A stretch of 45,816 bases of DNA, taken from contig JAKSBG010000519.1 in the NCBI GenBank assembly GCA_022361255.1, positions 1 to 45,816 on the forward strand, written 5' to 3'. How positions within the stretch are numbered: position 1 is the first letter of the stretch; each line of letters begins with the position of its first letter. Below the pieces are notes generated by a model. The model saw nothing but the letters and a program-made list of their open reading frames with translations. It searched no databases and was not told the DNA's origin. The position numbers and the translations under genes were made by a program. Below are positions 14,351 to 33,235 of this stretch, piece by piece. The stretch comes from Verrucomicrobiales bacterium (GTDB lineage: Bacteria > Verrucomicrobiota > Verrucomicrobiia > Verrucomicrobiales > DEV007).

Positions 14351-14439
14351 AGCATCCCGGGCCTACGCGTTCTTCTGCCCTCGATAGGACTTCCGTGCCC
14401 GGTTGTGAAAGCCTGCCGGGGTCCCGCTCCTGTATCCCG

Positions 14440-14469
14440 TAGACATGATTACAAACCCTTCACTATTAT
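14440..14469 (+). promoter_or_regulatory. Possible sigma-70-type promoter for the SHD1 protein
   Basis: TAGACA at 14440-14445 and TATTAT at 14464-14469 are separated by 18 nt, 42 nt before the ATG at 14512. Both boxes match the consensus in 4-5 of 6 positions. The rest of the 161-nt gap after holA shows nothing clear. Confidence 0.4.
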
Positions 14470-14511
14470 GCACTATGCAATCAGCCCGTAAAAGCTTACC
14501 ATCGTTTAGCC

Positions 14512-15246: not shown

Positions 15247-15250
15247 CCAA

Positions 15251-15265
15251 TTTCACCCGGTGAAA
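15251..15265. terminator. Short palindrome at convergent stop codons (SHD1 gene / dnaJ)
   Basis: TTTCAC-CCG-GTGAAA is a perfect 6-bp stem that includes the dnaJ stop codon at 15253-15255. No long T run follows on either strand, so its role as a terminator is tentative. Confidence 0.35.
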
Positions 15266-16413
15266 AACCGCTTCGCTTTGGAAAAGAAACTTTCTCCTAC
15301 CGGGTGATTCTTCTCTGTCACCGTATCGGCGAACTGCTGAAGGATCTGCTCCTGATCTTTGCTGAGCTTTACCGGAACCTCTACCTGAACATTAACCAGC
15401 AGATCTCCTTTCCGGCCGGTCTGTAAGTCAGGAAGCCCTTTGTCACGCAAACGAAAAACAGTGTTCGTCTGCGTTCCGGGGGCAACTTTCACGGAAGCTT
15501 TCCCGTTCAACGTGGGAACGATCAATTCACCGCCCAGCGCAGCCAGTGTAAATGGCAGGGGAACTTCACAATGCAAATTGGAATCATCACGCTCAAACAC
15601 CTCGTGCGCTTTGATATGAATGATCACATAGAGGTCGCCAGCGGGACCGCCCTGACGCCCCGCCTCCCCGTGCCCGAGAGAACGTAGACGCCCTCCTTCC
15701 ATAATCCCCGGGGGGATTTTGAGCTTGATACGACTGCTCCCTTTTACCCTTCCCTCCCCGGAACATTCCCGGCAAGGGTTGGAGATACTCTCCCCGCTGC
15801 CATTGCAATCGGGACAGGTCTGTTGCACTTGAAAAAATCCACGACTCGTAATGACCTGGCCGACTCCGCCACATGTGGGGCAACTCCGCACATCACCGCT
15901 TCCTCCCTCGGCTCCGGTTGCCTCGCAGGACTCGCATTCAACAAGACGCTCGATTTTCAGCTCTTTTTCCACTCCCTCAGCAGCTTCTTCAAGCGTGATT
16001 TGCAAATCATAGCGGAGGTCGGCACCGCGCTTGCGGCGCTCGGCGCGGGAAGCTCCGCCACCTCCAAAAATCTCATCAAAGATACTTCCGCCGCCACCAC
16101 CTCCGCCGCCGCCACTAAATACCTCACGAAAAATGTCAAAAGGATCAGCTCCTCCGAAACCGCCCCCGGCTGAAGCCCCGGTCCCCTGACTGAACGCGCG
16201 ATGACCGTACCGATCATAGGCAGCCCGTTTTTGTTCGTCCATCAGGATCTCGTACGCCTCGCCGATCTCTTTAAACTTTTCTTCCGCTTCGGGATCGTCA
16301 GGATTTTTGTCGGGATGAAATTTGATCGCAAGCTTGCGATAAGATTTCTTGATCGTCGTGCCGTCGGCGTCCCGGGAGACCTGCAGAATTTCGTAGTAAT
16401 CGCGCTTTTCCAT
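15253..16413 (-). CDS. dnaJ: Chaperone DnaJ (Hsp40)
   Basis: Delivers unfolded proteins to DnaK and stimulates its ATPase. The 386-residue protein has the J domain with the HPD motif in FHPDKNP (about residues 33-35), a Gly/Phe-rich linker with an uninterrupted run of nine Gly, and four zinc-finger repeats: [32 protein letters not shown]. The C-terminal substrate domains follow, ending [11 protein letters not shown]. It lies 42 nt after grpE on the same strand, so grpE-dnaJ is likely an operon. dnaK is not in this window, which is unusual for a grpE-dnaJ pair. Confidence 0.97.
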
Positions 16414-16455
16414 GAAAACGTAGGTTTCCCTGTAAGGGAATGATAATTGACCTTC

Positions 16456-17064
16456 TTACTCTCCGGATTCAGGCCCTGAAGAGACAACCACGTTCGCGGC
16501 CCGCAATATTCGATCCTTCAACCGGTATCCGCGACGCATCGTGAACATCACGTGGCCTTCGGGAACAGAGTCACTCGGCTCCTGCTTGATCGCTTCATGA
16601 ACATTCGGGTCAAAGGAAACATCGTCTGACGGGATAATCTCCACCCCCTGCCCGGTGAGAAAGTCATCAAGTTGCTTTCGAACCATCGCCATCCCCTGAA
16701 TGATCATCGACTGCTCTCCCTCCGCTTCACGGGCAGCCTGCAGGCCCATTTCAAAATTATCAATCACTGGAAGCAACTGTTCCAGCAAGTTTCGGTTGGC
16801 ATAGAGAATTGCTTCACTCTTCTCTCTCGCCATCCGCTTACGATAATTCTCCAGTTCAGCGCTTGCCCGGGCTGCATGGTCCTTCCACTTTTCCACCTCC
16901 TCTTCAGGTGTTGCGGGAATCTCATCCTTCTCTGAATCCTCTTTGGTAGTCTGTTCGGATTCCCCCGTTACAGGTTCTTCAAGAACTTCCTCAGAAATAT
17001 GGATGTCCTCCTCCTCGTCTGACACGGGAGTTTCGGCATGGTCGTTTGTAGACTCGTTGCTCAT
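16456..17064 (-). CDS. grpE: Nucleotide exchange factor GrpE
   Basis: Releases ADP from DnaK. The 202-residue protein has a long acidic N-terminal segment (about residues 1-55, many Glu), the dimerisation helix with KDHAARASAELENYRKRM, LLPVIDNFEMGL and the beta domain GVEIIPSD...FDPNVHEAI...VMFTMRRGYRLKDRILRAA. Upstream of dnaJ on the same strand. A second protein with a GrpE-like layout but a membrane anchor is at 6308-6892. Confidence 0.96.
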   Translation of the reverse strand: MSNESTNDHAETPVSDEEEDIHISEEVLEEPVTGESEQTTKEDSEKDEIPATPEEEVEKWKDHAARASAELENYRKRMAREKSEAILYANRNLLEQLLPVIDNFEMGLQAAREAEGEQSMIIQGMAMVRKQLDDFLTGQGVEIIPSDDVSFDPNVHEAIKQEPSDSVPEGHVMFTMRRGYRLKDRILRAANVVVSSGPESGE

Positions 17065-17139
17065 TTCAATGAAAAATCGTTTCCTGCATCACCACTGATG
17101 CAGCAATAAAATTCCCGGAATCGGGAAGGGCGGGACTAT

Positions 17140-18579
17140 TCACCGTTTCTCGATTGCAATCAAGGTGATGTCGTCAGTTTGGGCAGTCCCTTCGGAAAAC
17201 TTGATGACATCCTCGTTGATAATCTGAATAAGTTCGCTCGATGACGTCCCCGAATGCATTTTTACAATTTCACAAAGTCTTTCGACGCCATACTCGTCCC
17301 CCATGCGGTTTTCACTTTCGATAATCCCGTCTGTGTAGAGCAAAAGTATATCGCCAGTGTCCATGGTAAAGCGGTGATCTTTCACCGACCTTTTGAAAAC
17401 GGGGCCTTCATCGATCCCTGCGGCGAGCCCCGGAGGCTCAATCAATTCAATTTCACCCGTTTCGCGATGAAACAGAATGGGGGGCTCATGGCCCGCACGC
17501 GCCAGAGTAATTTCGTTCGACCCCCTCTCCAGAATGAGATAAAGGAGACTGACGAAGAGGTCCTCCCTGATATCGGGAAAGATCAGCCTATTTACATCAT
17601 GCAGAACAGAAGCGGGTGAGAGATTCTCCGAAGTCCTCCCGCGCAAATTGGTCCTGCACATAGCCATAATCAATGACGCTGCGACCCCCTTACCGCAGAC
17701 ATCACCGATTGCGATACCGTAACGGTCGTCATCCACGCGGAGATAGTCGTAGTAGTCTCCACTCAGTATTCTTGCAGCACGGTATTCAGCGGAGACATCA
17801 TAGTCTGTCAATTCCGGCGAGACCCGGGGAAGAAGAACTTTCTGAATCTCTCCAGCCTGCTCCAGCTCGCGCTCGAGCCGTCGCTTTTCATTCACCTCAA
17901 TATGAATTATCGCACTTCCCAGAGCGTAAGCGCTTTGCTCCGCCACACTGTCAAAAACCTCGCGGTCATTCTGAGTAAATTCCTTATCCCCCTTCTTCAC
18001 TACGGCAAGAACCCCAACCCTCTTCTGCCCGTATACCAGGGGTGCCCCGAGGAAAGCGACATCATCCAGAAACGGGTTTTTATTTGTTTGGAAATCGGAA
18101 TGAGTTTTCAACTCCGGCAAATACACACCCTCATCCATTCCAAGAGTTTCCCCGAGAAGGTTCCCATCCGAAGGGAGAGGCGAAAGCCTTACGTAGTTTC
18201 GATAGGCGCGCTCCACTTTCCCACTGCCTCCTGAAGTCAAAATTTCCGTCGGGAGCGGGATGACCGGGGCTAAAGACTCCGTTTGCGCAACCGGGACGAG
18301 CTGACTTGTCTCCGCATCGAGAAGGTAGAGAATCCCGGCATCTGCCCTGATTACTTCGACCACCCCGTTCACGATGTAACTGTGCATGTTGGCAGGAGAG
18401 GTATCTTCCTGGAGCTCTTCCCCCAACCCGTGTAGAAATCCGAACATGCGGCGCTCCTCCCGCTCGATTGCGTCTTTCTCCTTCTCGTGCCGCAATGCGA
18501 CTCCGTGCTCTCTTCGCCACAGGAAGACCGCGACACCCGTGAGAATCACCAAAGCAGCCCCATACAGAAAATGTTCCAT
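17140..18579 (-). CDS. Membrane-anchored GAF-SpoIIE (PP2C-type) serine phosphatase
   Basis: Resembles RsbU-type phosphatases that dephosphorylate anti-anti-sigma factors. From ATG 18579 (479 residues) there is one N-terminal transmembrane helix (YGAALVILTGVAVFLW), a coiled-coil, a GAF domain (about residues 55-230), a linker ERELEQAGEIQKVLLPR and a PP2C-like domain with metal sites SGDYYDY, IGDVCGKGV, LYTDGIIES and TDDITLIAI. The ATG at 18627 lies within the preceding gene and would add 16 residues without support. Directly downstream of a STAS protein (22 nt), its likely substrate. Confidence 0.92.
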   Translation of the reverse strand: MEHFLYGAALVILTGVAVFLWRREHGVALRHEKEKDAIEREERRMFGFLHGLGEELQEDTSPANMHSYIVNGVVEVIRADAGILYLLDAETSQLVPVAQTESLAPVIPLPTEILTSGGSGKVERAYRNYVRLSPLPSDGNLLGETLGMDEGVYLPELKTHSDFQTNKNPFLDDVAFLGAPLVYGQKRVGVLAVVKKGDKEFTQNDREVFDSVAEQSAYALGSAIIHIEVNEKRRLERELEQAGEIQKVLLPRVSPELTDYDVSAEYRAARILSGDYYDYLRVDDDRYGIAIGDVCGKGVAASLIMAMCRTNLRGRTSENLSPASVLHDVNRLIFPDIREDLFVSLLYLILERGSNEITLARAGHEPPILFHRETGEIELIEPPGLAAGIDEGPVFKRSVKDHRFTMDTGDILLLYTDGIIESENRMGDEYGVERLCEIVKMHSGTSSSELIQIINEDVIKFSEGTAQTDDITLIAIEKR

Positions 18580-18601
18580 GAACAGCGGTGACAAAAAAGG
18601 G

Positions 18602-19135
18602 CTAGCTTTCGCTGCCCTGACTCTCAAGATCCTTCTTCAAAAATTCAACAACATCACAAAATCGGCTCCGGTTCTCCTCGTTCGCCTCGATCAATGCCTC
18701 ATGAGCATCAAGGACCAGTTCCGCTCGTTCCTCCCGAGTCTGCTTTTGCGAGCATAACGGGTGTTTCAAATTTTCTTCGACGAGATGCTTTTCCTCAGAC
18801 CAAGATGCCCCATCCCTGTCAATGCGGATCATCGCATCCAGTCCCAACTTGCGTATCGACCTCTCATTCCGGTCTCCCGGATGGATGACATCAACCGAAC
18901 CGGACTCGCTTTTCTCCGTCACATCTGCAGCCAGTCGATAGAGCATTCCGATAAAAGTGGAATCGATTCCGATACAGTTTTGCAAATCAATCACAAATCT
19001 TGACCAGCCCTTCTCGAACCTTCCCCGGAGAAAGTCACGTATTTGACCTGCATTTTCCTGATTCGCAGGCCCATCAATCCGCACCCAGGCAACCGAGCCA
19101 AGGCAACCCACCAATATAGATCCGGGAGTGCTCAA
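18602..19135 (-). CDS. STAS-domain protein (anti-anti-sigma-like) with C-terminal extension
   Basis: The first about 110 residues form a STAS domain: a strand VAWVRIDGP, then the phosphorylation-site region FVIDLQNCIGIDSTFIGML, where the Ser of IDST matches the site phosphorylated in SpoIIAA/RsbV. A further 65 charged, helical residues follow (EERAELVLDAHEALIEANEE) that typical SpoIIAA lacks. With the SpoIIE phosphatase next to it, a partner-switch module is likely. No anti-sigma kinase (HATPase) is in the window. Confidence 0.85.
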   Translation of the reverse strand: MSTPGSILVGCLGSVAWVRIDGPANQENAGQIRDFLRGRFEKGWSRFVIDLQNCIGIDSTFIGMLYRLAADVTEKSESGSVDVIHPGDRNERSIRKLGLDAMIRIDRDGASWSEEKHLVEENLKHPLCSQKQTREERAELVLDAHEALIEANEENRSRFCDVVEFLKKDLESQGSES

Positions 19136-19208
19136 AACTTTACCAATTTACAGATTGCTGAACTCTGCCGAAAAAAAGCAGGACCAGTGATACAGGGACG
19201 ATCCAAAA

Positions 19209-19691
19209 CTATTTCCACAAAAAGGATTTGAATTCCGCTACAACAACACCGTTTTCCACAACTGTCGCACGCCACTGCGTAACCCGTCCCATCTCTTCGT
19301 ATTCCTCCCCGATTACTTCGAAACGCGTCGCATTTCGCCCCTTTGGCTTCGATACGTGAATTTCCTTTTGATGGATCTCCGGGCCCGTTGCTGCAACGCG
19401 ATATTCGAATCGAACAGTTGCCGGAGCTTTCGTCTTCGTATTCCAGAAGACCGTATAATAATACCCTTTCCGTTCCCGAAAATCCGCCGAATCAACGGCC
19501 CCGTAGGAGAGACGCCTCCTCTCAAACTTGATCATCTCGTCATCGGTCTTCACACTGCGGGAAGTCTCGAGATGATAAGGATTTACTTTCGAAATGGAAA
19601 CAGGTCCGGGGTTGGTTGTAGTGCACCCGCACAACTGCAGGATTGCACCTGCCACAACAGACAAAAGGAGGATTTCGCGCAGGAATGTCAT
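19209..19691 (-). CDS. Putative lipoprotein of unknown function
   Basis: A 160-residue protein with a signal sequence (LREILLLSVVAGAILQ) ending in a lipobox-like LCGC, Cys23 being the probable lipidation site, followed by TTTNPGP. The mature part is beta-rich (YYYTVFWNTKTKAPATVRFEYRV), with no recognised family. Likely outer-membrane-anchored. Located between mazG (110 nt) and the STAS gene (73 nt) on the same strand. Confidence 0.75.
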   Translation of the reverse strand: MTFLREILLLSVVAGAILQLCGCTTTNPGPVSISKVNPYHLETSRSVKTDDEMIKFERRRLSYGAVDSADFRERKGYYYTVFWNTKTKAPATVRFEYRVAATGPEIHQKEIHVSKPKGRNATRFEVIGEEYEEMGRVTQWRATVVENGVVVAEFKSFLWK

Positions 19692-19801
19692 GGATGGGAA
19701 ACTTGGAGAAGCGTTTGTCCACTTGCCGGACTTGTCATGTGGAATTTTAAAAAAACGCGTCGAAAAAGATACGCTGCTTTTGGAGAGGCGACAACGAAAA
19801 G

Positions 19802-20623
19802 TCAGTTCTTCATTTTCGCCGCCTCCCAGGCTGCATCCATCTCTTCAAGACCGGCCTCCTCCAATGAAATGCCTCTGTTACGCAGGGCATTCTCCACCAG
19901 CTGAAACCGATCCACAAACTTCCGATTTGCCCGGTGAAGCAGCAACTCCGCCTCATTACCGGTCTTACGTGCGAGGTTTACGACCGCGAAAAGAAGGTCG
20001 CCTATCTCCTCCGCCACACTGTCGTCTGATTCCTCCTCCATCAGTGCCCCTGAGACCTCGTCCAGCTCCTCCGCAACTTTCGCGAGAACAGGCTTCAGGG
20101 ACGGCCAGTCAAAACCTACTTTCGCGACCTTTTTCTGAATCTTTTGCGATGCCATCAGCGCCGGAAGCCCCTCATTTGCCTTTTGCAGAAACGGTTTCGG
20201 GGAGGAGGCCTGCTCCTCATCCGATTCGCCTTTTTCTCCGGCCTTAATCTGCTCCCATTGACTCAATACAGCGTCCGGATCAGCTGCTGTCGCATTTCCG
20301 AAAACATGGGGGTGACGCCGAATCAGCTTTTCGCAGATCGCATTGGCGATGTCATCGAGGGTAAACCGCCCCTCTTCCGAGGCAATCTCCGCATGAAAGA
20401 CTGGCTGCAGGAGCAGATCACCCAATTCATCGATGATCTCCGCATCATCGCCCCCGCGTACGGCTTCCGCCACTTCATAGGACTCTTCGATAAGATGCTT
20501 CAGCAGGGATTCATGGGTTTGCTCTGCGTCCCACGGGCATCCGCCGGGAGATCGCAGCAAATGCATGATTTGTCGAAGGCGCTCAACAGGGGGGAGGTCG
20601 GCGGAGGGTATCGGGCGTGGCAT
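19802..20623 (-). CDS. mazG: Nucleoside triphosphate pyrophosphohydrolase MazG
   Basis: Hydrolyses (d)NTPs to monophosphates and PPi, a house-cleaning and stress-related role. The 273-residue protein has two MazG domains. The N-terminal one begins LRSPGGCPWDAEQTHESL and carries metal motifs EESYEVAEA and DELGDLLLQ; the second has EELDEVSGAL and EIGDLLFAV. The linker includes KVGFDWPSLKPVLAKVAEE. Complete and of usual length. Follows the ECF sigma gene by 83 nt. Confidence 0.94.
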   Translation of the reverse strand: MPRPIPSADLPPVERLRQIMHLLRSPGGCPWDAEQTHESLLKHLIEESYEVAEAVRGGDDAEIIDELGDLLLQPVFHAEIASEEGRFTLDDIANAICEKLIRRHPHVFGNATAADPDAVLSQWEQIKAGEKGESDEEQASSPKPFLQKANEGLPALMASQKIQKKVAKVGFDWPSLKPVLAKVAEELDEVSGALMEEESDDSVAEEIGDLLFAVVNLARKTGNEAELLLHRANRKFVDRFQLVENALRNRGISLEEAGLEEMDAAWEAAKMKN

Positions 20624-20706
20624 ATCAGGAGCGGACTACAGTATTCCCGACAAGGAACCCTGATTCCCCGGACTTTCCAGCACGAGAGTCTTTAATTGGG
20701 CTGAAA

Positions 20707-21219
20707 TCACGCCCCGATCTCAATCGCTTCGCGGGACAGACAGCGGCGCAGAGCATCCATCCCGTAGCGATAGCGGGATGCGGCCGTGTTCGGGGAGATT
20801 TCCAGTGTTTTCCCGATTTCCTCAAATGTTTGCTCCCCCCAGATTTTCAAGGTAATCACTTCCCGAAACTTTTCGGGAATTTTTGCCATCGCAACCTGAA
20901 GAGCCCGCGAGGTGTCGTCCTCGGGCAGAGAAAACCAGGAGACTTGTTCAAAATTCTCCCGAAGAGCCTGATCTTCACGATGCCGACGACGGTCGATGCT
21001 GCGAGCAAGGTCGATCGCACAACGCCGGATGTTCGTGTAGGCAAGACTGACGACTTTCTCATCAGGAGCGCCATGATGGGTTTTCCAGGTCTTAACGAGT
21101 GCCGACTGGAGAACATCCTCGGCATCAGCTTCCGAGCGCGTTTGCTGGCGGGCAAAGAGAAGCAATCGACTTCCATACTCCGCCAACCATTCTTTCCACT
21201 GGTCCGAATGATTCTGCAT
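20707..21219 (-). CDS. RNA polymerase sigma factor, ECF type
   Basis: From ATG 21219 the protein has 170 residues beginning MQNHSDQWKEWLAEYG. Region 2 is ARQQTRSEADAEDVLQSALVKTW; region 4 is a helix-turn-helix IPEKFREVITLKIWGEQTFEEIGKTLEISPNTAASRYRYG. The ATG at 21282 would add 21 residues not expected in the family and lies against the sulfatase stop, so it is not preferred. No transmembrane anti-sigma gene is adjacent; the neighbours are a sulfatase upstream and mazG downstream. Target promoters unknown. Confidence 0.9.
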   Translation of the reverse strand: MQNHSDQWKEWLAEYGSRLLLFARQQTRSEADAEDVLQSALVKTWKTHHGAPDEKVVSLAYTNIRRCAIDLARSIDRRRHREDQALRENFEQVSWFSLPEDDTSRALQVAMAKIPEKFREVITLKIWGEQTFEEIGKTLEISPNTAASRYRYGMDALRRCLSREAIEIGA

Positions 21220-21281
21220 ATAACTATGAGACGACCACGCGGGAGAAACGTTCAGAAAAAAGGGGAAAAAATCGCGCCTCA

Positions 21282-22643
21282 CTACTGTCCCACCATGCTC
21301 TTCTCTTTCTCTTCGCGAATCTTCAGCAATTCCGCCACGACTTCCGGATGGTCAGCTTTCCGATTCGTTGTCTCACCGATGTCTTCATCGAGATTCGCGA
21401 GAAAGAGCTTTTTGTCCTCTCCGGTGAGCTCGCTGACACCTTCCGGCCTCACATTTTCCATCGTATTGCCAAGTAGCTTCCAGGGCCCTTTTCGCACTGC
21501 CCACTTGGCTTTATCAGGATTTCCGCCAAGACGCCAATAGAAGGAGTCATGCTGACTCCCTGCATCCTCGTCGAGCAGCACATTGACCATCGACTTGCCG
21601 TCGATGATATGGTCGGCCGCGATTTCCGTTCCGGTCAGTTCCATAATTGTCGGGAACCAGTCCATTCCGGTCACAAGCTGATCACGCACCTCTCCTTTCG
21701 GCAGACCGGCAGGCCAACTCACAACGGACGGCACCCGAAGCCCGCCTTCAAATAAATTGCCCTTGTGTCCGCGATAGGGGCCGGCCGAGCCACCGCCGTG
21801 AAAAGTTCGCTCCTCGACCGAGTGCCCGTGGTCGGATTGAAAAATCACCATCGTATTCTCGCGCAGCCCCGATTTCTCAAGGTGATCAAGCAATTGCCCC
21901 AGCAAGTCATCGGTCGATGACAGGAATGCAGCGTACTTGTCGCGAGGGTGCTCCAGATCTTTGTAGTAATCGCGCCATTTCGCCGTCCCCTGCAGCGGGT
22001 AGTGCGGCCAGTTGATCGCCCAGTAGACAAAAAACGGGCCGTCTTTTTCCTTGTCGATGAAGGCGTTGATTTCGTCGACCATTGAGTCCCCAAAATAGAC
22101 TCCGTCCTGCCAGATCTCTTCGCCGTTGCGCCAGAGGTCGTGTCGGTTCGGCCCCTGCCAGTAAAAGAAGTGCGAGTAGTTATCAATGCACCCCCCCATG
22201 TGGCCGAAAGAATAATCAAAGCCCTGTGCATTCGGCATTGTTTCCGGCGTGTAACCGAGATGCCATTTCCCGATGTGACCTGTTGCGTAGCCGGATTTCC
22301 TGAGAGCTTCAGCGATTGTGATTTTCTCTGTCGGCATTCCGGAGTTCCCTTTTGCCGAAGAAACGTTCGCCGGTACCCCGGCCCGCGCAGGCATTTGTCC
22401 GGTCAGCAATCCAGCGCGCGATGCAGAACATATCGCAGAGGGCGCCAGCATCTGGGTGAAGCGCACTCCTGTTTCGGCAAGCCGATCAATATGGGGGGTG
22501 GCGAGGTCGGTAGCACCATAGCAATTCGCGTCGATCGAACCCTGATCATCGGTGTAGACGATAATCACGTTCGGCTTTTCAGCTGCGAAAAGGTTCAGAG
22601 AAGCAGCGAGAACTATCGGAACAAGAAGAAATCGAAGGTGCAT
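21282..22643 (-). CDS. Exported sulfatase (formylglycine-dependent)
   Basis: Hydrolyses sulfate esters, probably of polysaccharides. The 453-residue protein has a Sec signal peptide (first about 20 residues, ending LNLFAAEKP), metal-binding VYTDDQG at residues 29-35 and the sulfatase signature CSASRAGLLTG at 72-82, in which Cys72 is the residue converted to formylglycine. GKWHLGY and SDHGHS are also conserved. Periplasmic or surface location is expected. No maturase (anSME/FGE) is in the window. It lies 62 nt upstream of the ECF sigma gene. Confidence 0.95.
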   Translation of the reverse strand: MHLRFLLVPIVLAASLNLFAAEKPNVIIVYTDDQGSIDANCYGATDLATPHIDRLAETGVRFTQMLAPSAICSASRAGLLTGQMPARAGVPANVSSAKGNSGMPTEKITIAEALRKSGYATGHIGKWHLGYTPETMPNAQGFDYSFGHMGGCIDNYSHFFYWQGPNRHDLWRNGEEIWQDGVYFGDSMVDEINAFIDKEKDGPFFVYWAINWPHYPLQGTAKWRDYYKDLEHPRDKYAAFLSSTDDLLGQLLDHLEKSGLRENTMVIFQSDHGHSVEERTFHGGGSAGPYRGHKGNLFEGGLRVPSVVSWPAGLPKGEVRDQLVTGMDWFPTIMELTGTEIAADHIIDGKSMVNVLLDEDAGSQHDSFYWRLGGNPDKAKWAVRKGPWKLLGNTMENVRPEGVSELTGEDKKLFLANLDEDIGETTNRKADHPEVVAELLKIREEKEKSMVGQ

Positions 22644-22732
22644 GCTTCAAGTATCCCCCGTCTCGCTTTCCACAGCAAGCCCGGAAGACTCCCCGCTTCT
22701 GCGGAGCCGATCAGATTCCCGCTGTTCACTTT

Positions 22733-23167
22733 TCAGCCACCCCATCCCCCCGAGCGGTGCCGATCCACAAAATACTTCATCGTCAGATATACGACCGACC
22801 GGAGATCGTGCCGGGACTGCCACCCGAGGCGCTCCCTGACTTTCGTCACATCCGGAATCCGGCGGTCGCAATCTTCATAGCCTTCACCGTAAAATTCATC
22901 AGCGCTTACCGAGATGATTTCGGGATCGGGATCTCCCTCGATGCGGAATTCTTCGTCAAAGACCTCTTTCATCAGCTCGGCAAACCCGCGGATGGTCGTC
23001 TCGTTTTCAGGTGTCCCGATATTGAAAATTTCCCGATCGCACACGCCGCCCGGATTATCAATTATCCGAATCATGCAATCGACAGCATCATCGATATAGG
23101 TGTAGGCACGATAATTTCGCCCTCCGTCCACCAGCTTCATCGGAGTGCCATAAAGCAGGGAATTCAT
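22733..23167 (-). pseudogene. NAD-dependent epimerase/UDP-glucuronate decarboxylase-like, C-terminal part only
   Basis: 144 codons match the C-terminal half of ArnA/UXS-type short-chain dehydrogenases: NSLLYGTPMKLVDGG, YTYIDDAVDCMIRII, EIFNIGTPENETTI and YGEGYEDCDRRIPD. The Rossmann GxxGxxG and the YxxxK catalytic motif, expected about 200 residues earlier, are missing. The frame upstream of ATG 23167 (positions above 23167) reads unrelated residues and hits a stop at 23234-23236. The loss begins exactly where the TPR protein on the other strand also loses its N-terminus, at a GAATTC (23160-23165). Truncated gene or chimera. Confidence 0.85.
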
Positions 23168-24254
23168 GATTCCTCCTCTCGCGGGATGGATCGCGCTCGG
23201 CGCAGTCCTCGCAGCCTTCAGCTTCCTAACCAGTCAACAAAGTCAGACCTGGAAAAATGCGGAATCTTTATGGAGGCACGCCATTGCGGTTACCGGGCAA
23301 AACTACGTTGCCCACAATCAGCTCGGCCTCGCGCTTCTGGAATCCGGCCGGTTTGAAGAAGGTGTCGCAGAATTAAAAAATTCCAACAAGGCCAACCCAA
23401 AAGTCCCCCTGGCTCTGGGCAACCTGTCTATGGCCTACGCCAAACAGGGACAGTTTGAAGAAGCGCTGGCCTGGTTTAAAAAGGCCGGGGAAGGACTCCC
23501 CGATCGAGACAGATACCGGAAGGAACTTGCCAGCGCCTGTCTTGCAACAGGCAATGCAGACCTTGCTGAAAAACTCTGGGAAAACGGAATCAAAGAGAGC
23601 CCTGATGATCCCGACGTCCACCTCGACGCAGCGGATTTCTTTTACCAGCAGGGAGACCCCGAAAAAGCGCTCACTTACTATCACCGCGCTGCGGAGCTTG
23701 GATCAAAGAATATTCGGGCCACCCAGAGCGTCGGAGCCATTCTCCTGAAGAGGAGAAAAGTCGAGGAAGCCCTCCCTTTCCTGGAACGCAGCGTTTCCAT
23801 GAAAGCACCTCCTGCGGAGGCCGCCTCAGCCCGCCGAACACTTGCCCAGGCGTATCTTTTACAGCGCAACTGGACGGCATCCCTGCAGCAATATTCCGAA
23901 GCGGTTTCACTGGCACCGGAACAACATGTGGCCGTAAACGAATTCGCCCAGCTCCTGCTGCAATGCCCGGAGAAATCACTCCAGAATCCTTCACGCGCTC
24001 TTGAACTCGCAACTACTCTGCCGGTCCAGAATCTTGCAGAAGGTGAGATACCGAATCCCCGCTATCTCGTCACTCTGGCAACGGCCCATTCCCGCACCGG
24101 CAATTCCGGGCGTGCAGGAAAAGTCGCGGCAGCAGGACTGAAAGTGCTCGACATCATTTCGCAAAAGGAACCGCTCTCGGAGCCGTGGACCACGGAAGAA
24201 ATCGAGTCACTGCGAAAGAGACTTCAGCAAGTCATCCCTGCCGCTCAGGAATAG
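23166..24254 (+). pseudogene. TPR membrane protein, C-terminal part only
   Basis: 362 codons begin within a last transmembrane helix (LAGWIALGAVLAAFSFL), continue with TWKNAESLWRHAIAVTGQNYVAHNQLG and then TPR repeats to about residue 340. That linker is typical of large proteins with about 10 transmembrane segments followed by TPRs (TMTC/PMT-like family in bacteria); the segments before the last are missing. In-frame stop TAA at 23151-23153 precedes the ATG, so the gene does not continue to the left. The missing N-terminus coincides with the junction described for the epimerase. Its 3' end overlaps the convergent queC by 10 nt. Confidence 0.8.
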
Positions 24255-24898
24255 ACCGTCGGGTCTTCGACTCCGGCGATGGCAAACGCCTCTTTCCGCT
24301 CGACGCAGGTTCCGCATTTTCCGCAGTGTAACTCACCGCCTTTGTAGCAGGACCACGTTTCCGAAAAATCCACCCCCAGCTCCGCTCCGACGGAGACAAT
24401 ATCCTCTTTTCGCTGGTCAATGAACGGGCGGATAATCTGCAGATCCGCATAGGTCCCCGCCGCAATCGCCTCCGCCATGGGGCGCATGAACTCTTCCCGG
24501 CAATCCGGATAAATCGCATGATCACCCGAATGCGCTGCGATAACAAGGCCCTCCGCGCCTATGCTCTCTGCAAAACCTGCGGCGATAGAAAGCAGGATCC
24601 CGTTCCGGAAAGGAACCACCGTTTGCTTCATGTTATCCGCTTCGTAGTGCCCTTCCGGGATATCACCGCCGCTCTTTAATAGATCGCTCTGAAAATGCGC
24701 ATTGATGAATGGCAGTGCCATCACTTGATGCCTTACTCCAAGCTGCTCGCAGTGCCACTCCGCGAAAGGAATCTCCCGGCCATTGTGCTTCGAACCGTAA
24801 TCGAAACTGAGACCGGCTACGATTTCGTGATTCTTCGCCGCGTGGTGCAAAGCCGTCACGGAGTCCATTCCCCCACTGACGAGAACGACGACCTTCAT
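24245..24898 (-). CDS. queC: 7-cyano-7-deazaguanine synthase
   Basis: Makes preQ0 from 7-carboxy-7-deazaguanine, ammonia and ATP in queuosine synthesis. The 217-residue protein has the PP-loop SGGMDS at residues 8-13, SFDYGSKHNGRE, VPFRNGILLSIAAGFAE and a C-terminal zinc site of four Cys in TWSCYKGGELHCGKCGTC. Start ATG overlaps the queF stop by 4 nt, so the pair is translationally coupled. Confidence 0.96.
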   Translation of the reverse strand: MKVVVLVSGGMDSVTALHHAAKNHEIVAGLSFDYGSKHNGREIPFAEWHCEQLGVRHQVMALPFINAHFQSDLLKSGGDIPEGHYEADNMKQTVVPFRNGILLSIAAGFAESIGAEGLVIAAHSGDHAIYPDCREEFMRPMAEAIAAGTYADLQIIRPFIDQRKEDIVSVGAELGVDFSETWSCYKGGELHCGKCGTCVERKEAFAIAGVEDPTVYS

Positions 24899-25344
24899 TC
24901 TGATCCGGATCCATCAATTTCCTCCAGCCCCGCATCCGGATACGAAGCCGTCGCAGTCAACTGAATCCCGCCCCGGGGTGAAAAACGGCCCCTCACGATC
25001 ATCCGACGCGGCGAACAGGCACCCGATAGATCGTCGAGAATCCGGTTCACAATGTCCTCATTGAACGAGGGTGTATTCCGGAACGACGCGAGATAGAACT
25101 TCAGCGACTTTGTCTCAATGCACTTCTCCCCGGGAATGTATTTGATCACGAGATGCGCGGTGTCCGGCTGTCCCGTTACGGGGCAGAGGGAACTGAATTC
25201 CGGATAGTCCAGCTCGATCCAGTAGTTCCTGTCCGCATTCCGGTTCGGAAACACTTCGAGCGTGGCATCCTCCGGTGAGGTCGGGAGCCGGTTTTCGCTG
25301 TGACCTAACAGGGTTAGGTCTTTGACTGAAGAGGGTTGAGTCAT
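24895..25344 (-). CDS. queF: NADPH-dependent 7-cyano-7-deazaguanine reductase
   Basis: Reduces preQ0 to preQ1, the step after QueC. The 149-residue single-domain (type I) protein has the catalytic FSSLCPVTGQPD with Cys54 and Asp61, the IKYIPGEKCIETKSLKFYLAS stretch and FNEDIVNRILDDL. Heads the queF-queC operon. No preQ1 riboswitch was recognised in the 98-nt upstream region, which is A/T-rich. A perfect 8-bp hairpin (25302-25320) lies inside its first 15 codons. Confidence 0.95.
   Translation of the reverse strand: MTQPSSVKDLTLLGHSENRLPTSPEDATLEVFPNRNADRNYWIELDYPEFSSLCPVTGQPDTAHLVIKYIPGEKCIETKSLKFYLASFRNTPSFNEDIVNRILDDLSGACSPRRMIVRGRFSPRGGIQLTATASYPDAGLEEIDGSGSE
25302..25320 (-). promoter_or_regulatory. 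Hairpin inside the 5' coding end of queF
   Basis: GACCTAAC pairs perfectly with GTTAGGTC around a 3-nt loop, 25-43 nt into the coding sequence. It could slow translation, or be incidental. The queF leader carries a related sequence (25350-25364), and another lies before the SNF2 gene (36712-36726). Confidence 0.3.
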
Positions 25345-25442
25345 AGAGGTGATAGGGTTGGGTCCAACTCTTTATCCTTATCACTTTTCTTTTTCCTTAT
25401 CCTCTAAAGAAAACAGGAAGGAGAAAAAAAGAAGCGCGGGCC

Positions 25443-26627
25443 CTATTCCACCGGAACAGCCCTGGCCGGTTGCGCCGGTGCGTCTACGGGATCGACCGGT
25501 CTTGCACGAGCCGGCTCATCTGTGACCGGAACCGCCCTTGCCGGCTGCGCCGGCTGATCAACACTTTCAGGCTGCTTCACCACGATCTCGACGCGACGAT
25601 TGATGGCCTGCTCCTCCTTTGTTCCCTCAAGCGAAACAATGGGACGGGTTTTCCCCAGCCCCACGACCTTGATATTCGAAGCATCTATCCGAAGACGCTC
25701 GACGAGCCACTTCCGAACCGCCTCGGCGCGAAGCAAACTCAGCTTCCGGTTGTATTCATCATCACCGATTCCGTCCGTGTGCCCCTCGATCACAAACGTC
25801 GCCTCCGGGTTTGTCTGCACGATAAAGGCGAGTTTCATCATGCTGAGCCGGGCCTGCTCTTTCAGGTCTGACTCATTGAACTCAAACAGAATGTCCGTCG
25901 GCAATGCGATCTTTTCCTCGCCCGGAGGAAGCCCCCCGGTGCGTCCAACGAGGTCATCGAGATTGGCATACCCCTCCATGAATTCACCGGCCTTGTCCCC
26001 GAGTGCCTTCGAAGCAGCCTCTTTGAAAAATTGATCCGTATCAACGGAATCCCCCAGATTGTCGGTTTCCACCAACTCCAGAACCGGCTGCGCGGCAGAG
26101 ACATTGGCTGAGGAATCGATCAGCTTATTTCGCATGTCATCGAGGTCCTTTGCGAGAACCTCCGCAACTGAAATGTCCAGTCCACCGGCTGCAATATTGA
26201 GAGCCTCTCCAGGTGCCTTCGGGGCTTCCCCGGAAAAAACCTGCGGAGTCTCGATCGGGGACATCCGGATGATTTCATCCTTCATTTCCTCCATCAAGTC
26301 GAACTCGTCGAATTCCTGCACCAGATCGAGGTCACTGATTTTCTCCGGCTCCAAAGGAGTGTCCTCAGGAATAAACGGCTCTTCGAGAAGGCGGTTCAAC
26401 TCTTCCTGATCGATCTTGAGTTGCTCCCGGGTATTCTGCCAGACGACTTGATCGCCCTTAATCCCCATCGCGCTGCGTTGAATCCCGCCGAGAACCATGT
26501 AAAGAATCACGTGAACGATCACCGATATCAAAATCGCAAGCAGCACCCACCAACCGAGGTTGCGGGTTTCCACCTTGAAGACGGATTGGCCTTTGGTGGC
26601 CGGATGCCAATCATAGGACGAAGCCAT
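25443..26627 (-). CDS. OmpA/MotB-type protein with N-terminal membrane anchor
   Basis: From ATG 26627 the protein has 394 residues: a cytoplasmic N-terminus, one transmembrane helix (about residues 25-48, WWVLLAILISVIVHVILYMVL), a long acidic helical region (about 60-240), and an OmpA-family peptidoglycan-binding domain with FEFNESDLKEQARLSM, VIEGHTDGIGDDEYNRKLS and INRRVEIVV. It ends with a repeat of PAQPARAVPV seen twice, also repeated at DNA level. The single anchor plus OmpA layout is MotB-like, but there is no motA neighbour. The ATG at 26759 adds 44 residues overlapping the divergent gene and is unlikely. Role: cell-envelope anchoring, inferred. Confidence 0.85.
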   Translation of the reverse strand: MASSYDWHPATKGQSVFKVETRNLGWWVLLAILISVIVHVILYMVLGGIQRSAMGIKGDQVVWQNTREQLKIDQEELNRLLEEPFIPEDTPLEPEKISDLDLVQEFDEFDLMEEMKDEIIRMSPIETPQVFSGEAPKAPGEALNIAAGGLDISVAEVLAKDLDDMRNKLIDSSANVSAAQPVLELVETDNLGDSVDTDQFFKEAASKALGDKAGEFMEGYANLDDLVGRTGGLPPGEEKIALPTDILFEFNESDLKEQARLSMMKLAFIVQTNPEATFVIEGHTDGIGDDEYNRKLSLLRAEAVRKWLVERLRIDASNIKVVGLGKTRPIVSLEGTKEEQAINRRVEIVVKQPESVDQPAQPARAVPVTDEPARARPVDPVDAPAQPARAVPVE

Positions 26628-26738
26628 GAAAATGAGGGATAATTTCCACAATAACGCACTTTTCCGGTTTCGGCAAAGGGCGTCCGTGTTTATAAGAAAC
26701 GTCTCAGGCACCGCGAAAAACAGAGAAAAATCACCAGT

Positions 26739-28331
26739 GTGACGAAAGAACCCTGGCATACCATTTTCGGATTCGATACGGATCGATACAGGATCGGGCG
26801 CTCACTCATGATCCGCGCTCTCGGTCTGGTCTACTTTATCGCGATCACATCCTGGTGGACGCAGGTCGGGATGCTCGTGGGGAAAGACGGCCTGAGCCCG
26901 GCTTCGGAGCTGCACGCAATTCTCAAAGATCGACTCGGAGCGGCTGGCGAAAGCCCTTTCCTCGCCCTGCCGAATGCTTTCTGGATTTTCGGAACCAGTG
27001 ATTTCGCGCTGCAGTTTCTCTGCTTCATCGGGGCTATCCTCTCGCTTTTCGTCATAGTTGGACGGTTCTCCGGGCCCGCGCTGATTCTTCTCTGGATCAT
27101 CTACCTTTCACTCGTGAATACCGGCGGGGTTTTCATGAGTTTCCAGTGGGACATCTTACTCCTTGAAGCAGGATTCCTGGGAATTTTTCTGACCAGTTGG
27201 AAACTTCACTCCACCTGGAGCAACCCGCCGCGCCTCAGTCTGGTCAATCGTATCGCGCTGGTGTTTTCGTGGTTTCTCATTGCGAAACTGATGTTCTTTT
27301 CCGGATGGGTGAAGCTGGCATGGGCCGGAGATGCCACACCGGAATGGTGGCCGGAACACACCGCAATGACCTTTCACTACATGACACAACCGATTCCAAC
27401 ATGGACGGCATGGCATGCACACCACTGGTCAGAGGGATTTCACAAGTTCTCGATCTGGCCGATGTACTTCATCGAATTGATTCTGCCTTTTGCGATTGTC
27501 TTCGGACGCTTCGGAAGGCTTACTGCCGCAATTGGTTTCAGCCTTTTGATGGTCGTGATTCTCGCGACAGGTAACTATACCTTCTTCAACTGGCTTACCA
27601 TAGCACTCTGCCTGCCTCTGATCCACGACCGGCTCTGGCCGAAGTGGTTTCGCGAACTGCTGAAATTCACGCCGGAGGGCCTCGTTCCGCGACCGGTATG
27701 GAAACAACGAGCGATCAAACTTTCTGTCGCCGGACCGATTTTCGTTTTGCTGGGACTGCTGAATCTACACGTCGTCCTGAGCGATTTTCACCAGGCTCCC
27801 AATCCGGTATTCAAAAAAAACCTCACGCCCGGTTGGTTCGATGTGTTTCGCCGGCAAATGAATCCGTTCCGACTTGTTTCGGGGTATGGCCTGTTTCGCA
27901 CGATGACAACAGAGCGTCCCGAAATCATTCTGGAGGGAAGCTGGGACGGAACGTCGTGGTTCGAGTATGATATCGCCTGGAAAGTCGACGAACTTTCTGA
28001 CCGTCCCAAATTTGTCGCCCCGCACCAACCTCGGGTCGCGTGGCAGTTCTGGTTCGCAGCTCTGGAGAAACGGTTTGATCCCCGTAGCCGGTATGCGAAA
28101 TGGATAGAATCTCTTATTGTGAAACTGCTGCGTGGCGATTCGAGTGTCGAAGGGCTCATCAAACACAACCCTTTTCCCAATAATCCGCCACGGTTGATTC
28201 GCGCGCGGCTTTTCAACTACAACTTTACAACACCTGAGGAACGCGCCCGAACCGGCGACTGGTGGAAGCGCGTGGCTGCAGGGGAATACCTCGGCCCCGT
28301 CAGTCTCCCGAATCCGAAAAACGAATCATGA
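26739..28331 (+). CDS. Lipase maturation factor 1-like membrane protein
   Basis: A 530-residue polytopic membrane protein with several hydrophobic segments in the first about 350 residues (LGLVYFIAITSWW, LQFLCFIGAILSLFVIV, FSGPALILLWIIYLSL, YFIELILPFAIVF). Its C-terminal domain carries the LMF family pattern: HQPRVAWQFWFAAL, HNPFPNNPPRLIRARLFNY and DWWKRVAAGEYLGP. In animals LMF1 helps lipases fold in the ER; the bacterial role is unknown. GTG 26739 is the start in this frame with no strong ribosome site. Its stop overlaps the next ATG by 4 nt, so the two are coupled. Confidence 0.85.
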   Translation: MTKEPWHTIFGFDTDRYRIGRSLMIRALGLVYFIAITSWWTQVGMLVGKDGLSPASELHAILKDRLGAAGESPFLALPNAFWIFGTSDFALQFLCFIGAILSLFVIVGRFSGPALILLWIIYLSLVNTGGVFMSFQWDILLLEAGFLGIFLTSWKLHSTWSNPPRLSLVNRIALVFSWFLIAKLMFFSGWVKLAWAGDATPEWWPEHTAMTFHYMTQPIPTWTAWHAHHWSEGFHKFSIWPMYFIELILPFAIVFGRFGRLTAAIGFSLLMVVILATGNYTFFNWLTIALCLPLIHDRLWPKWFRELLKFTPEGLVPRPVWKQRAIKLSVAGPIFVLLGLLNLHVVLSDFHQAPNPVFKKNLTPGWFDVFRRQMNPFRLVSGYGLFRTMTTERPEIILEGSWDGTSWFEYDIAWKVDELSDRPKFVAPHQPRVAWQFWFAALEKRFDPRSRYAKWIESLIVKLLRGDSSVEGLIKHNPFPNNPPRLIRARLFNYNFTTPEERARTGDWWKRVAAGEYLGPVSLPNPKNES

Positions 28332-28798
28332 ACCCGTTCTGGACAGACATGATCGTAAAGGCAGTTCTACCGTGGGGAACAAAGTGGGCCCGCAGGCAGG
28401 AAGCCGTCATTCTCGCCGAAGGTCGCCCCCTCAGCGAATGGGAAACCATGTGGGCCACCGATGTGGGGGTCTCCAAACCGGAAGCGGTTCGTATTTTGCC
28501 CGTCCCCCGCATTCCGACACCGGGTTCGTGGTTTACGAAGCTCTTGCGAATCTTCTCCGAAGGCCCAACCGGAATGGCTGTGAACTACGGCATCTACCTC
28601 GAGGCTTCGCAGGCAACGAATCCATCGCTGCTGGTTCACGAACTCACCCACGTAGCGCAATTCGAGCGACTTGGGGGAATTGAAAACTTCCTGCGGGAAT
28701 ATCTCACCCAGTGCGTTCGCGACGGATACTGGGAAGCGGAGATGGAAATCGAAGCGAGAGAGGCTGCCGCTCCGTTTACCAGACCCCCGGGAGGGTAG
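28328..28798 (+). CDS. DUF4157-like protein with HELTH metalloprotease-type motif
   Basis: A 156-residue protein from ATG 28328, which overlaps the stop of the LMF-like gene (ATGA). Residues around 100-120 read LLVHELTHVAQFERLGG, an HExxH-type zinc motif as found in DUF4157 proteins, followed by a Glu-rich DGYWEAEMEIEAREAA that may give the third ligand. Catalysis is not shown; DUF4157 domains are often regarded as toxin-associated or inert. No signal peptide. Convergent with ispH with a 2-nt gap. Confidence 0.65.
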   Translation: MNPFWTDMIVKAVLPWGTKWARRQEAVILAEGRPLSEWETMWATDVGVSKPEAVRILPVPRIPTPGSWFTKLLRIFSEGPTGMAVNYGIYLEASQATNPSLLVHELTHVAQFERLGGIENFLREYLTQCVRDGYWEAEMEIEAREAAAPFTRPPGG

Positions 28799-28811
28799 AT
28801 TTACGCCTCCC
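28789..28811. terminator. Hairpin at convergent stop codons (DUF4157-like / ispH)
   Basis: GGGAGG (28789-28794) pairs with CCTCCC (28806-28811) around an 11-nt loop that spans both stop codons. No T run follows, so function is tentative. Confidence 0.35.
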
Positions 28812-30021
28812 TTACCTGTTCAGGCGAGACGCCGCGAAGCTCGAAGGCCTTCAGAATGGTTTCCTCGATCAAATTGCTCGGGCAGGATGCCCCTGCAGTG
28901 ATCCCAACTACGAGATCACCGTCTCCGGTAAACCCTTTGAACTCACTGTTTACTTCCGTCTTCCGGTGGAGGTCGTAGTGAACAATTTCCTCGAGCGATT
29001 TCAGGCATTTCGCGCTCCGGATAAAAAAGGTGGGCAACTCTTTCTCACCAATTTCAACAAGATGGGTTGTATTGGAACTGTTGTAGCCACCAACAACGAG
29101 GAGAACATCCATGTGATGATTCAACATCTCGAAGAGCGCATCCTGGCGTTCCTGAGTTGCGCCACAGATCGTGTCGAATACGAGAAAATTGTCGGCACTT
29201 CCGTCGCGATCTTCAATCGCAACTCTGACGCGCCGTTGAATCTCCTCCGTCTCGGACTTCAACATCGTCGTCTGATTTGCCACCCCCACCTGTTTGAGAT
29301 GTTTATCAGGATCAAACCCTTCAGAAACGGAGCCCGAAAACCGGGAGAGAAAAGCCTCGCGATCACCGCCGTTGCGGATGTAATCACAAACAACGTCGAC
29401 ATCCTCCAGCGTGAGCACGATAAGGTAACTGCCCTTGCCGTCATCACCAGCAGCACGCGAAGCCGTAGCCCGAGTCTCCTCGTGATCGGCTTTCCCGTGA
29501 ATAATCGATGTTACTCCGTCCTTTGCGAAATTCCGGACGCGGCGCCATACCTTCATGACATCGCCACAGGTGGTGTCCACAATCTGACATCCCTGCGACT
29601 CAACCTTGTCCATGAATGAAATCGGAGCACCGAAGGCAGGAACGATCACAACATCATTCTCGTCCAAATCATCATATTGCTCGTCCATTTCCCTCCAGGG
29701 AAGGGAAACAATCTTCATCTCCTCGAGCTGCCGATTCACCTCGGGATTGTGAATGATTTCTCCGATCAGAAAAATGCGGTTGTCGGGAAATACCCGGCGC
29801 GAAGCGTAGGCAAGATCAATCGCCCTCTCAACCCCGTAGCAAAAACCAAACTGCTGGGCGAGACGGACAGTCGTTTTCCCAATCGTCAGAACCCCGCCAC
29901 GAGAGCGGACTTTTTCAACAATTGAACTCTGGTAGTGATTCGCCACTTCCGCCTGGACGCGCTCCATCACTTCCGGCGTGCGGACATTCACACGCTTCTT
30001 CTTCTTGGGGACGGCTGGCAT
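28801..30021 (-). CDS. ispH: 4-hydroxy-3-methylbut-2-enyl diphosphate reductase (long form)
   Basis: Last step of the MEP pathway, giving IPP and DMAPP through a 4Fe-4S cluster. The 406-residue protein is the long type known from cyanobacteria and plastids, not the about 310-residue E. coli type. Cluster ligands are in FGFCYGVERAI (Cys61), DTTCGDVMKV and AGASCPSNLIEE; TICGATQERQ is also conserved. ispF of the pathway is at 10021-10509. ldt lies 26 nt upstream on the same strand. Confidence 0.95.
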   Translation of the reverse strand: MPAVPKKKKRVNVRTPEVMERVQAEVANHYQSSIVEKVRSRGGVLTIGKTTVRLAQQFGFCYGVERAIDLAYASRRVFPDNRIFLIGEIIHNPEVNRQLEEMKIVSLPWREMDEQYDDLDENDVVIVPAFGAPISFMDKVESQGCQIVDTTCGDVMKVWRRVRNFAKDGVTSIIHGKADHEETRATASRAAGDDGKGSYLIVLTLEDVDVVCDYIRNGGDREAFLSRFSGSVSEGFDPDKHLKQVGVANQTTMLKSETEEIQRRVRVAIEDRDGSADNFLVFDTICGATQERQDALFEMLNHHMDVLLVVGGYNSSNTTHLVEIGEKELPTFFIRSAKCLKSLEEIVHYDLHRKTEVNSEFKGFTGDGDLVVGITAGASCPSNLIEETILKAFELRGVSPEQVREA

Positions 30022-30047
30022 GAAATCAGATTCGAACTCCGTAGTAA

Positions 30048-30749
30048 CTAGAACCAGACGTTATCCATATCGGTAAAGACAGCATCCGATGCGCGCACAG
30101 AAGGTGGGGAGTCCGGATGAGCATAGTCGGTGGGACGCGGCACATTTTTACCAATCGTGGCGTCTTCTGGCAGACTGTTTTGAATGATGACCGGAGTGCC
30201 AACCTTCACCATGTGGTAGAAATCATCGGCAATTGTCTTATGAAGGCGGAGACATCCGTGAGTTCGAGGCTGAGGCCAAACTGCTCCGGCGTGGAATCCG
30301 CATCCATGAGAAAAGTAGACCCAGTAGGGAAGCGGATAACCAACGTAGCGGTATCCGGAAGGCATTTTTCGACGCTCGCCGGGAATCACTTGACCGTCTT
30401 TCACGAAAAACCCGTAACTGCTGGAACGTTTTTTGACCTCTTTGTGCTGCACCTTGAAAGTTCCTGTCGGAGTGGGATCTGAAGGAGTCCCAATAGCCAC
30501 CGCGGCAACAAAACGAGGCTCATCCCCCTCCATCACATAGACCGCGCGATTGCCCAAACTGACCTTCACCTTCACCTTGCTCATGTCCTGAATCGTTCCA
30601 TATCGAACAGCCATACTGGCCGGAACCGTTTCCTCCGGCGGCTTGGTCGCACATCCGACTACCACCATCGCAGCGACTGCGGTGGCAATTCCTGTGATGC
30701 AGGCCCGGATCGAGCCGGCCCTGGGAATGAAAGAACAAGATGGTTTCAT
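30048..30749 (-). CDS. L,D-transpeptidase (YkuD) lipoprotein
   Basis: Crosslinks peptidoglycan stem peptides or attaches proteins to them, in the periplasm. The 233-residue protein has a signal sequence with a lipobox ending VVGC (about Cys33), then a YkuD domain with YGFFVKDGQVIPGE, FHAGAVWPQP and the catalytic motif RTHGCLRLH containing the nucleophilic Cys. Upstream of ispH on the same strand. A 357-nt region without a gene lies before it. Confidence 0.9.
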   Translation of the reverse strand: MKPSCSFIPRAGSIRACITGIATAVAAMVVVGCATKPPEETVPASMAVRYGTIQDMSKVKVKVSLGNRAVYVMEGDEPRFVAAVAIGTPSDPTPTGTFKVQHKEVKKRSSSYGFFVKDGQVIPGERRKMPSGYRYVGYPLPYWVYFSHGCGFHAGAVWPQPRTHGCLRLHKTIADDFYHMVKVGTPVIIQNSLPEDATIGKNVPRPTDYAHPDSPPSVRASDAVFTDMDNVWF

Positions 30750-30844
30750 GACTCAAAAACTGGCCCGAAATCTACACCAAACCGGCTACGGAGCGAGAAA
30801 AGTTGGATAAATTGGAAAAAAATGAAGTTTTTAACGCTTTATTG

Positions 30845-30872
30845 TTGACTAAACTTAAATATTAACTATTCT
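30845..30872 (+). promoter_or_regulatory. Sigma-70-type promoter
   Basis: TTGACT (30845-30850) and TATTCT (30867-30872) with a 16-nt A/T-rich spacer, the best promoter match seen in the window. It points right, away from ldt, and toward no obvious protein gene. Confidence 0.6.
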
Positions 30873-30878
30873 ATAGTC

Positions 30879-30960
30879 GGTTACTTTCTCGGTAACTGTC
30901 TGTTTGTGTTTCGTGTTTTGGGGTCGCTTGTTCTTCGGAGTAAGCGGCCCCTTCACTTTT
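30879..30960 (+). ncRNA. Candidate small RNA ending in a terminator hairpin
   Basis: Transcription from the promoter at 30845-30872 would start near 30879. The about 80-nt product would have a 5-bp stem GTTAC/GTAAC (30880-30896) and a 10-bp stem GGGGTCGCTT/AAGCGGCCCC (30920-30951; one G-T pair), followed by TTCACTTTT. Promoter, short body and terminator-like end make a compact RNA unit. It may be a leader of unknown downstream gene instead. Confidence 0.45.
30920..30960 (+). terminator. Intrinsic terminator-like hairpin
   Basis: 10-bp stem 30920-30929/30942-30951 with a 12-nt loop, then TTCACTTTT. The stem is strong; the T tract is interrupted. Confidence 0.5.
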
Positions 30961-31106
30961 CAGGGGGCTCGGCGAGATGTGGAAACTCTTGTGGTGTGCC
31001 TTTTCTTTTTTTCCGGACTACTTCAGTTCGCCTTTTCTAACGAACCACCTCCGGCACGGACGTCCGGTTCGTTATTGCCTTTCCCGGACTTTCTCGTTTG
31101 CCGAAT

Positions 31107-31427
31107 TCAGATCGAGAACGGGATCATAAGTCCCTTTGAGAAGACATTATCTCCCATCAGGCGCACATTGACCTTTCCGACATCCCAATCTTGAGCGCGC
31201 AGGTAACCCGGATCATCCGGAAAGCCGAAAGCGATATTTTCATACAGCCGGGCCTTGAGACATTCGGTTATCGCGTTCTTCGGAACAATTTCGGAATCAG
31301 TCAGCCGGATACGTAACATCTTGCACTCCTCCAGCTTGGCTTGAAAACGCCCTTCCTGTAATCCAGTTGAGTAACCGACAACAGCACCAACAATGATCGA
31401 CAGGATTATGACGGCGACGAATTTCAT
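31107..31427 (-). CDS. Hypothetical small membrane-anchored protein
   Basis: From ATG 31427, 106 residues: a signal anchor at the start (MKFVAVIILSIIVGAVVGYS), then a charged soluble part with two Cys (LEECKMLRIR, AITECLKARL). Not recognised. Upstream ATG at 31454 would add 9 polar residues before the anchor and is less likely. It stands alone between the candidate small RNA and the tandem repeat. Confidence 0.55.
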   Translation of the reverse strand: MKFVAVIILSIIVGAVVGYSTGLQEGRFQAKLEECKMLRIRLTDSEIVPKNAITECLKARLYENIAFGFPDDPGYLRAQDWDVGKVNVRLMGDNVFSKGLMIPFSI

Positions 31428-31802
31428 TCGCCCATTCTGCCATTCGGAATGCATCCCGGGAAGCCGGAATCATTTGAACCTGTGCAATGTATCACAAAGC
31501 ACATGCAAATAACGGTCATTGCTGTCGGTAGGCTACACGGCATTGAACTTCGGAGGGTCACGGTCCTCCGTGACTGCAAACCGAAGTCACATTCAACCCA
31601 GCAGTCGACGGGACGTCGCCCCTCCGGAAACGAGGTATCGACAGCTTTTCGCAGATCAAGGCAAACCCCACGGAGGGTCACGGTCCCCCGTGACTACAAA
31701 CCGAAGTCACATTCAACCCAGCAGTCGACGAGACGTCGACCATCCGGCAGCGAGGTATCGACAGCGCTCCGGAATCAGTCGCGTTTTCGAAATTCGCCCG
31801 CT
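31428..31802. other. Intergenic region between hypothetical gene and recA end, mostly tandem repeat
   Basis: 375 nt without a supported gene, dominated by two 120-bp repeat units (31551-31765 in all). Nothing distinct in 31428-31550. Confidence 0.6.
31551..31765. repeat. Two tandem 120-bp repeat units with internal palindromes
   Basis: Unit 1 starts at 31551 and unit 2 at 31671 (exact 120-nt period); the first 95 nt of each are about 90 percent identical. Each unit has GTCACGG-N4-CCGTGAC (7-bp stem) and CGACG-N3-CGTCG (5-bp stem). The few differences lie mainly in the loops and flanks, not in the stems, which suggests the folded form is selected. It follows the 3' end of recA on the minus strand. 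Confidence 0.8.
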
Positions 31803-33032: not shown

Positions 33033-33068
33033 AATATGCCAAAGGATTTCGAGAAGAATACCATTAAG

Positions 33069-33133
33069 TGTTCACCCGTCCAGTAAAAAAGTGAACAAAG
33101 TTCAATTATGCAGCAATGTTCCCTTTGCTGAAC
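33069..33133. promoter_or_regulatory. Cluster of GTTC/GAAC half-sites upstream of recA (possible SOS operator)
   Basis: TGTTCAC (33069-33075) and GTGAACA (33091-33097) are an inverted repeat with a 15-nt spacer; TGAAC-AAA-GTTCA (33092-33104) is a tight palindrome; further GTTC (33118-33121) and GAAC (33130-33133) follow. LexA boxes in several phyla are built of GAAC/GTTC halves. Located 37-101 nt before the recA ATG in the gap to trpS. Spacing does not match one known LexA box exactly. Confidence 0.45.
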
Positions 33134-33235
33134 TGGAGATCTGCTGGTGGCTGGATGAGCACGGGCTTTCCGGGAATTGTTTTTCACCGCTGATTTGATT
33201 TCGTCGCGGTCCTGTAGAAAGGTCTGCCAATTACC

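Follow-up and report, generated by a model that had tools for sequence, protein, structure and literature searches.

Two head-to-head truncated genes in a Verrucomicrobiales contig are probably the product of a single deletion within a conserved locus

Introduction

Among the spontaneous rearrangements described in Salmonella are deletions with short overlaps at their junctions, and 8 bp was deduced as the minimum overlap at which deletions were accepted as true (PMC3411829). A second point of comparison is the NCBIfam profile PRK11908 (ArnA dehydrogenase domain/UDP-4-keto-pentose/UDP-xylose synthase), which has 349 positions and a curated cut-off of 294 bits. The window (the whole stretch of DNA analyzed, 45,816 nt; contig C206, 1-45816) carries an epimerase remnant that shares the C-terminal part of this profile, matching positions 204 to 337. 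This remnant lies head-to-head with a truncated TPR membrane protein gene. A first-pass annotation of the window had suggested an in-vitro ligation chimera at a GAATTC site or, otherwise, a natural rearrangement or inversion breakpoint. The comparison with relatives described here points to a collinear deletion within one locus.

Results

The minus-strand open reading frame at 22733-23167 encodes 144 amino acids, the C-terminal part of an epimerase of about 360 amino acids. The remnant's alignment to full-length relatives (359 to 361 aa) starts at residue 216; residues 1 to 215, which include the NAD-binding N-terminus and Tyr-xxx-Lys region, are missing. Its score against PRK11908 was 112.6 bits, under the curated cut-off, whereas the intact epimerase of congener G005 scored 344 bits and exceeded it. 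An intact relative matched ArnA and UDP-apiose/xylose synthase. The remnant is presumably inactive, since its NAD-binding and catalytic parts are missing.

The plus-strand remnant at 23166-24254 (362 aa, from a protein of about 740 aa) matched TPR families in a profile search and aligned from about residue 372 of relatives of 738 to 740 aa (L034 and L035). The full protein is a polytopic membrane/TPR protein; its last hydrophobic helix and its entire TPR domain are retained in the remnant. For the intact protein, structure prediction gave TPR helices at high confidence in the C-terminal half and low confidence in the N-terminal half. Its family matches were to TPR only, with none for the membrane half, for which a GT-C glycosyltransferase fold is at most a candidate. 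These alignments bear out the initial description of an epimerase and a TPR membrane protein that are head-to-head and lack their N-terminal parts. A second TPR protein copy of the same family, adjoining a choice-of-anchor-like ORF, was observed in G029 (L039, C733).

Overlapping ATG codons form the starts of both remnant reading frames. The foreign-side frames close at a TAA at 23151-23153 (TPR frame) and at a stop at 23234-23236 (epimerase frame), and GAATTC occupies 23160-23165 on the plus strand, all at the positions first reported. All inspected relatives have TTC or TTT followed by ATG at the epimerase position that matches the remnant start, and then AAC or AAT in most cases. The window reads ATC-ATG-AAT-TCC there, and Met-Asn-Ser is also encoded by G026, indicating that the epimerase similarity reaches 23169 and that GAATTC lies within the native epimerase codons Met216-Asn-Ser. 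DNA similarity to the G026 and G005 epimerase genes ends at 23169. On the TPR side, the match possibly begins at about 23163, where R-E-F-M-I-P in the window resembles R-R-F-Q-I-P in G026 (R-x-F-x-I-P). The break therefore falls within 23163-23169, at the originally stated 23165 or slightly to its right. In this interval TTCATGA is assignable to either side and may represent a short overlap, with microhomology of at most about 7 nt. The double truncation placed at about 23165 is real and beyond chance, but GAATTC is distinct from the junction itself, and its presence at the break is incidental.

The ligation of fragments in vitro at this EcoRI site is extremely unlikely. The site does lie within 1 to 4 bases of the break, but it consists of native codons, and the four bases after it, over which the epimerase similarity continues, would need to match the epimerase by chance. 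The window contains 24 GAATTC sites, against 9 expected from base composition, and the 23 others are uncut, with intact sites nearby at 22946 and 23940. Both joined ends belong to a single conserved locus and keep their native orientation, and the contig derives from a draft genome assembly rather than from a clone.

A close epimerase (75 to 82% identity) was found in 5 of the 33 congeners searched (G001, G005, G015, G026, and G029), and the N-terminal half of the TPR protein was found in the same five. In these congeners both genes are divergent neighbors with intact N-terminal halves (in G001 the contig ends before the TPR coding region does). The join in the window thus lies within one locus, unlike a random ligation. 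The N-terminal half of the epimerase was present at 21 of 21 loci in a search of genome contigs, and no relative examined has a short form. The epimerase search also brought up named relatives; these are draft genomes of Verrucomicrobiota, and almost all were assembled from metagenomes. In the epimerase, the nearest relatives have about 80% identity, no closely related strain was found, and the epimerase matches from a plasmid search were all distant.

Between the epimerase and TPR genes, the congeners carry a family-2 glycosyltransferase gene and up to two further genes. The order in G005 is TPR protein (738 aa), choice-of-anchor-D-like protein (307 aa), TorF-like porin (265 aa, a weak match), family-2 glycosyltransferase (255 aa, similar to dolichol-phosphate mannose synthase), and epimerase (359 aa). 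The points homologous to the junction are located at 9772 and 14412 in G005 (L034), giving a spacing of 4.64 kb. The spacing was 4.63 kb in G015 and about 4.66 kb in both G001 and G026, the G026 value being calculated from joined coordinates because its cluster is split over two contigs that share exactly 55 nt at their ends. In G029, which is without two of the spacer genes, the spacing was shorter (2.7 kb). An inversion was rejected, as the gene orientations are the same as in relatives, and the proposed natural rearrangement is retained as a simple deletion. A misjoin of two unrelated organisms was also rejected, as both ends derive from one conserved cluster and G+C content is similar to the left and right of the junction.

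On the right flank, the genes for QueC, QueF, and an OmpA-family protein (24245-26759, minus strand) are collinear with G026 contig C105, where they and the next gene lie beside the full-length TPR gene in the same order as in the window. The caution that operon and synteny claims across the break are unsafe is justified in part, but it does not extend to this TPR-QueC-QueF-OmpA order. On the left flank, the sulfatase gene (21282-22643, minus strand) had its best G026 match on a separate contig, C64, and no epimerase was found in the stretch of C64 read around this match. The sulfatase gene is not beside the epimerase gene in G026 or G005, suggesting that the locus underwent further rearrangement on the left side.

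A synteny break lies at 22643-22733, left of the epimerase remnant. In the window, sulfatase and sigma-factor genes are directly adjacent (20707-22643); in G026 (L085, 10991-12666), methyltransferase-like and FAD-oxidoreductase-like ORFs are located between them. This interval is a second two-gene presence/absence difference near the junction. Across 14000-34000, similarity to G026 occurs in blocks of a few kilobases on at least six contigs (C23, C64, C173, C105, C101, and C122), a pattern that may reflect either fast gene-order change between congeners or fragmented assemblies.

The window is part of a draft assembly of 5.85 Mb in 548 contigs (95.7% complete), probably metagenome-assembled, and the junction is known from this one assembly of the species. 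When G005 proteins were used as queries, no orthologue of the epimerase N-terminal half, the TPR N-terminal half, or the glycosyltransferase was found elsewhere in the assembly, where the first-pass annotation had proposed to look for the missing N-terminal halves. As a positive control, the TPR N-terminal query matched all five congeners and again nothing in the window's own genome. Five porin paralogues with 52 to 62% identity were detected, none of which was evidently the missing copy. The absence applies to the epimerase half, the TPR half, and the glycosyltransferase.

It is conceivable, but rather improbable, that the organism, or some of its population, does carry the segment of about 4.65 kb and that assembly dropped it because of a chimeric read, a strain-level bubble, or a low-coverage stretch. 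The assembly is a highly divided draft, and the G026 contigs also break in this region, at their 55-nt overlap, indicating that it is hard to assemble there. Against such a loss, the missing epimerase and TPR halves and the glycosyltransferase are on no other contig of the bin, and the homologous points of a relative have no long flanking repeats that would be an obvious cause of collapse. Repeat-mediated collapse was rejected, since no repeats of at least 12 nt were detected around the junction in the window and none joins the two junction-homologous points in L050.

Both remnants are open, without stop codons. The neutral expectation is that the first stop in either remnant appears at a median of 0.012 substitutions per site and, in 95% of cases, by 0.051. 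Third codon positions carry most of the differences, and about 60% of third positions differ from G026. Relative-rate counts of the window remnants with G015, G029, G001, L052, L056, and L058 as outgroups gave at most a weak, mostly nonsignificant excess of amino-acid change. A large value arose once, for the epimerase with G015 (chi-square, 5.8), and was not repeated with the other outgroups. An excess against G005 was discarded, since for this cluster G005 is nearer to G026 than the window is and therefore is no outgroup. Old pseudogenes were rejected, given the absence of stops and of a consistent rate excess. Open frames combined with this third-position divergence indicate that the deletion, if real, is very recent compared with the species split, that the remnants are still constrained, or that the junction is an artefact. 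Loss of the segment in assembly is compatible with open and not clearly accelerated remnants, as an artefact or a chimeric read would also give no decay.

It is very unlikely that both short genes are retained as functional units, with the TPR product anchored in the membrane by one helix and the epimerase C-terminal domain acting as a stand-alone protein. The open frames, the ordinary evolutionary rates, the retained last helix with its whole TPR domain, and an AGGAGG 4 nt ahead of the epimerase ATG would suit such a function, but the short form was found in no relative and the epimerase is without its NAD-binding half. Shine-Dalgarno-like cores precede 4 of the 40 ORFs in the whole window, counted from uncurated start sites, which is no more than background. 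The AGGAGG was rejected as a functional Shine-Dalgarno signal for this reason and because it is simply the complement of Pro-Pro codons. Equally unlikely is the idea that the deletion made two short genes that share a CATG start and were then retained, the TPR remnant serving as a scaffold held in the membrane by a single helix.

Discussion

One collinear deletion of about 4.65 kb in the organism is the best explanation of both truncations, with a probability of roughly three in four; this figure and the gradings given to the alternatives are judgements and were not computed. A single deletion within a conserved locus accounts for both truncations, for the head-to-head orientation, and for the right flank. 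The ancestral divergent cluster would have had the membrane/TPR gene on one strand and, on the opposite strand, genes for a small surface-type protein, a TorF-like porin, a polyprenyl-phosphate-type glycosyltransferase, and an ArnA-like epimerase. The deletion would have run from inside the TPR gene to inside the epimerase gene and taken both 5' parts and the genes between, leaving two open truncated remnants that meet at 23163-23169. Illegitimate recombination, by short homology or end joining, may have been the route, as the lack of flanking repeats and a possible overlap of no more than about 7 nt are in keeping with this mechanism. The deletion probably occurred in the organism rather than in the assembly only, and it may be recent.

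The deleted cluster resembles a lipid-linked pentose modification pathway, judging from the sequence families of its ArnA-like enzyme, its polyprenyl-phosphate-type glycosyltransferase, and its polytopic TPR membrane protein. Because the deletion leaves the epimerase without its NAD-binding half and the TPR protein with almost nothing of its membrane half, this putative pathway is likely to be inactive in the window genome, and the species should not be credited with this sugar-modification cluster. The ORFs at 22733-24254 should be annotated as partial genes. The head-to-head neighborhood is real and conserved; the short forms are not conserved. The cluster is patchy in the genus, occurring in 5 of 33 congeners, and the window looks like a case of recent loss.

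Compared with the Salmonella set (PMC3411829), the possible overlap at the window junction (about 7 nt at most) falls short of the 8-bp cut-off and cannot tell a deletion from a chimera, and the window deletion is known from one draft assembly alone. What it has in common with the Salmonella rearrangements (PMC3411829) is a kilobase-scale collinear deletion whose junction shows a possible short overlap and lacks long repeats on its flanks.
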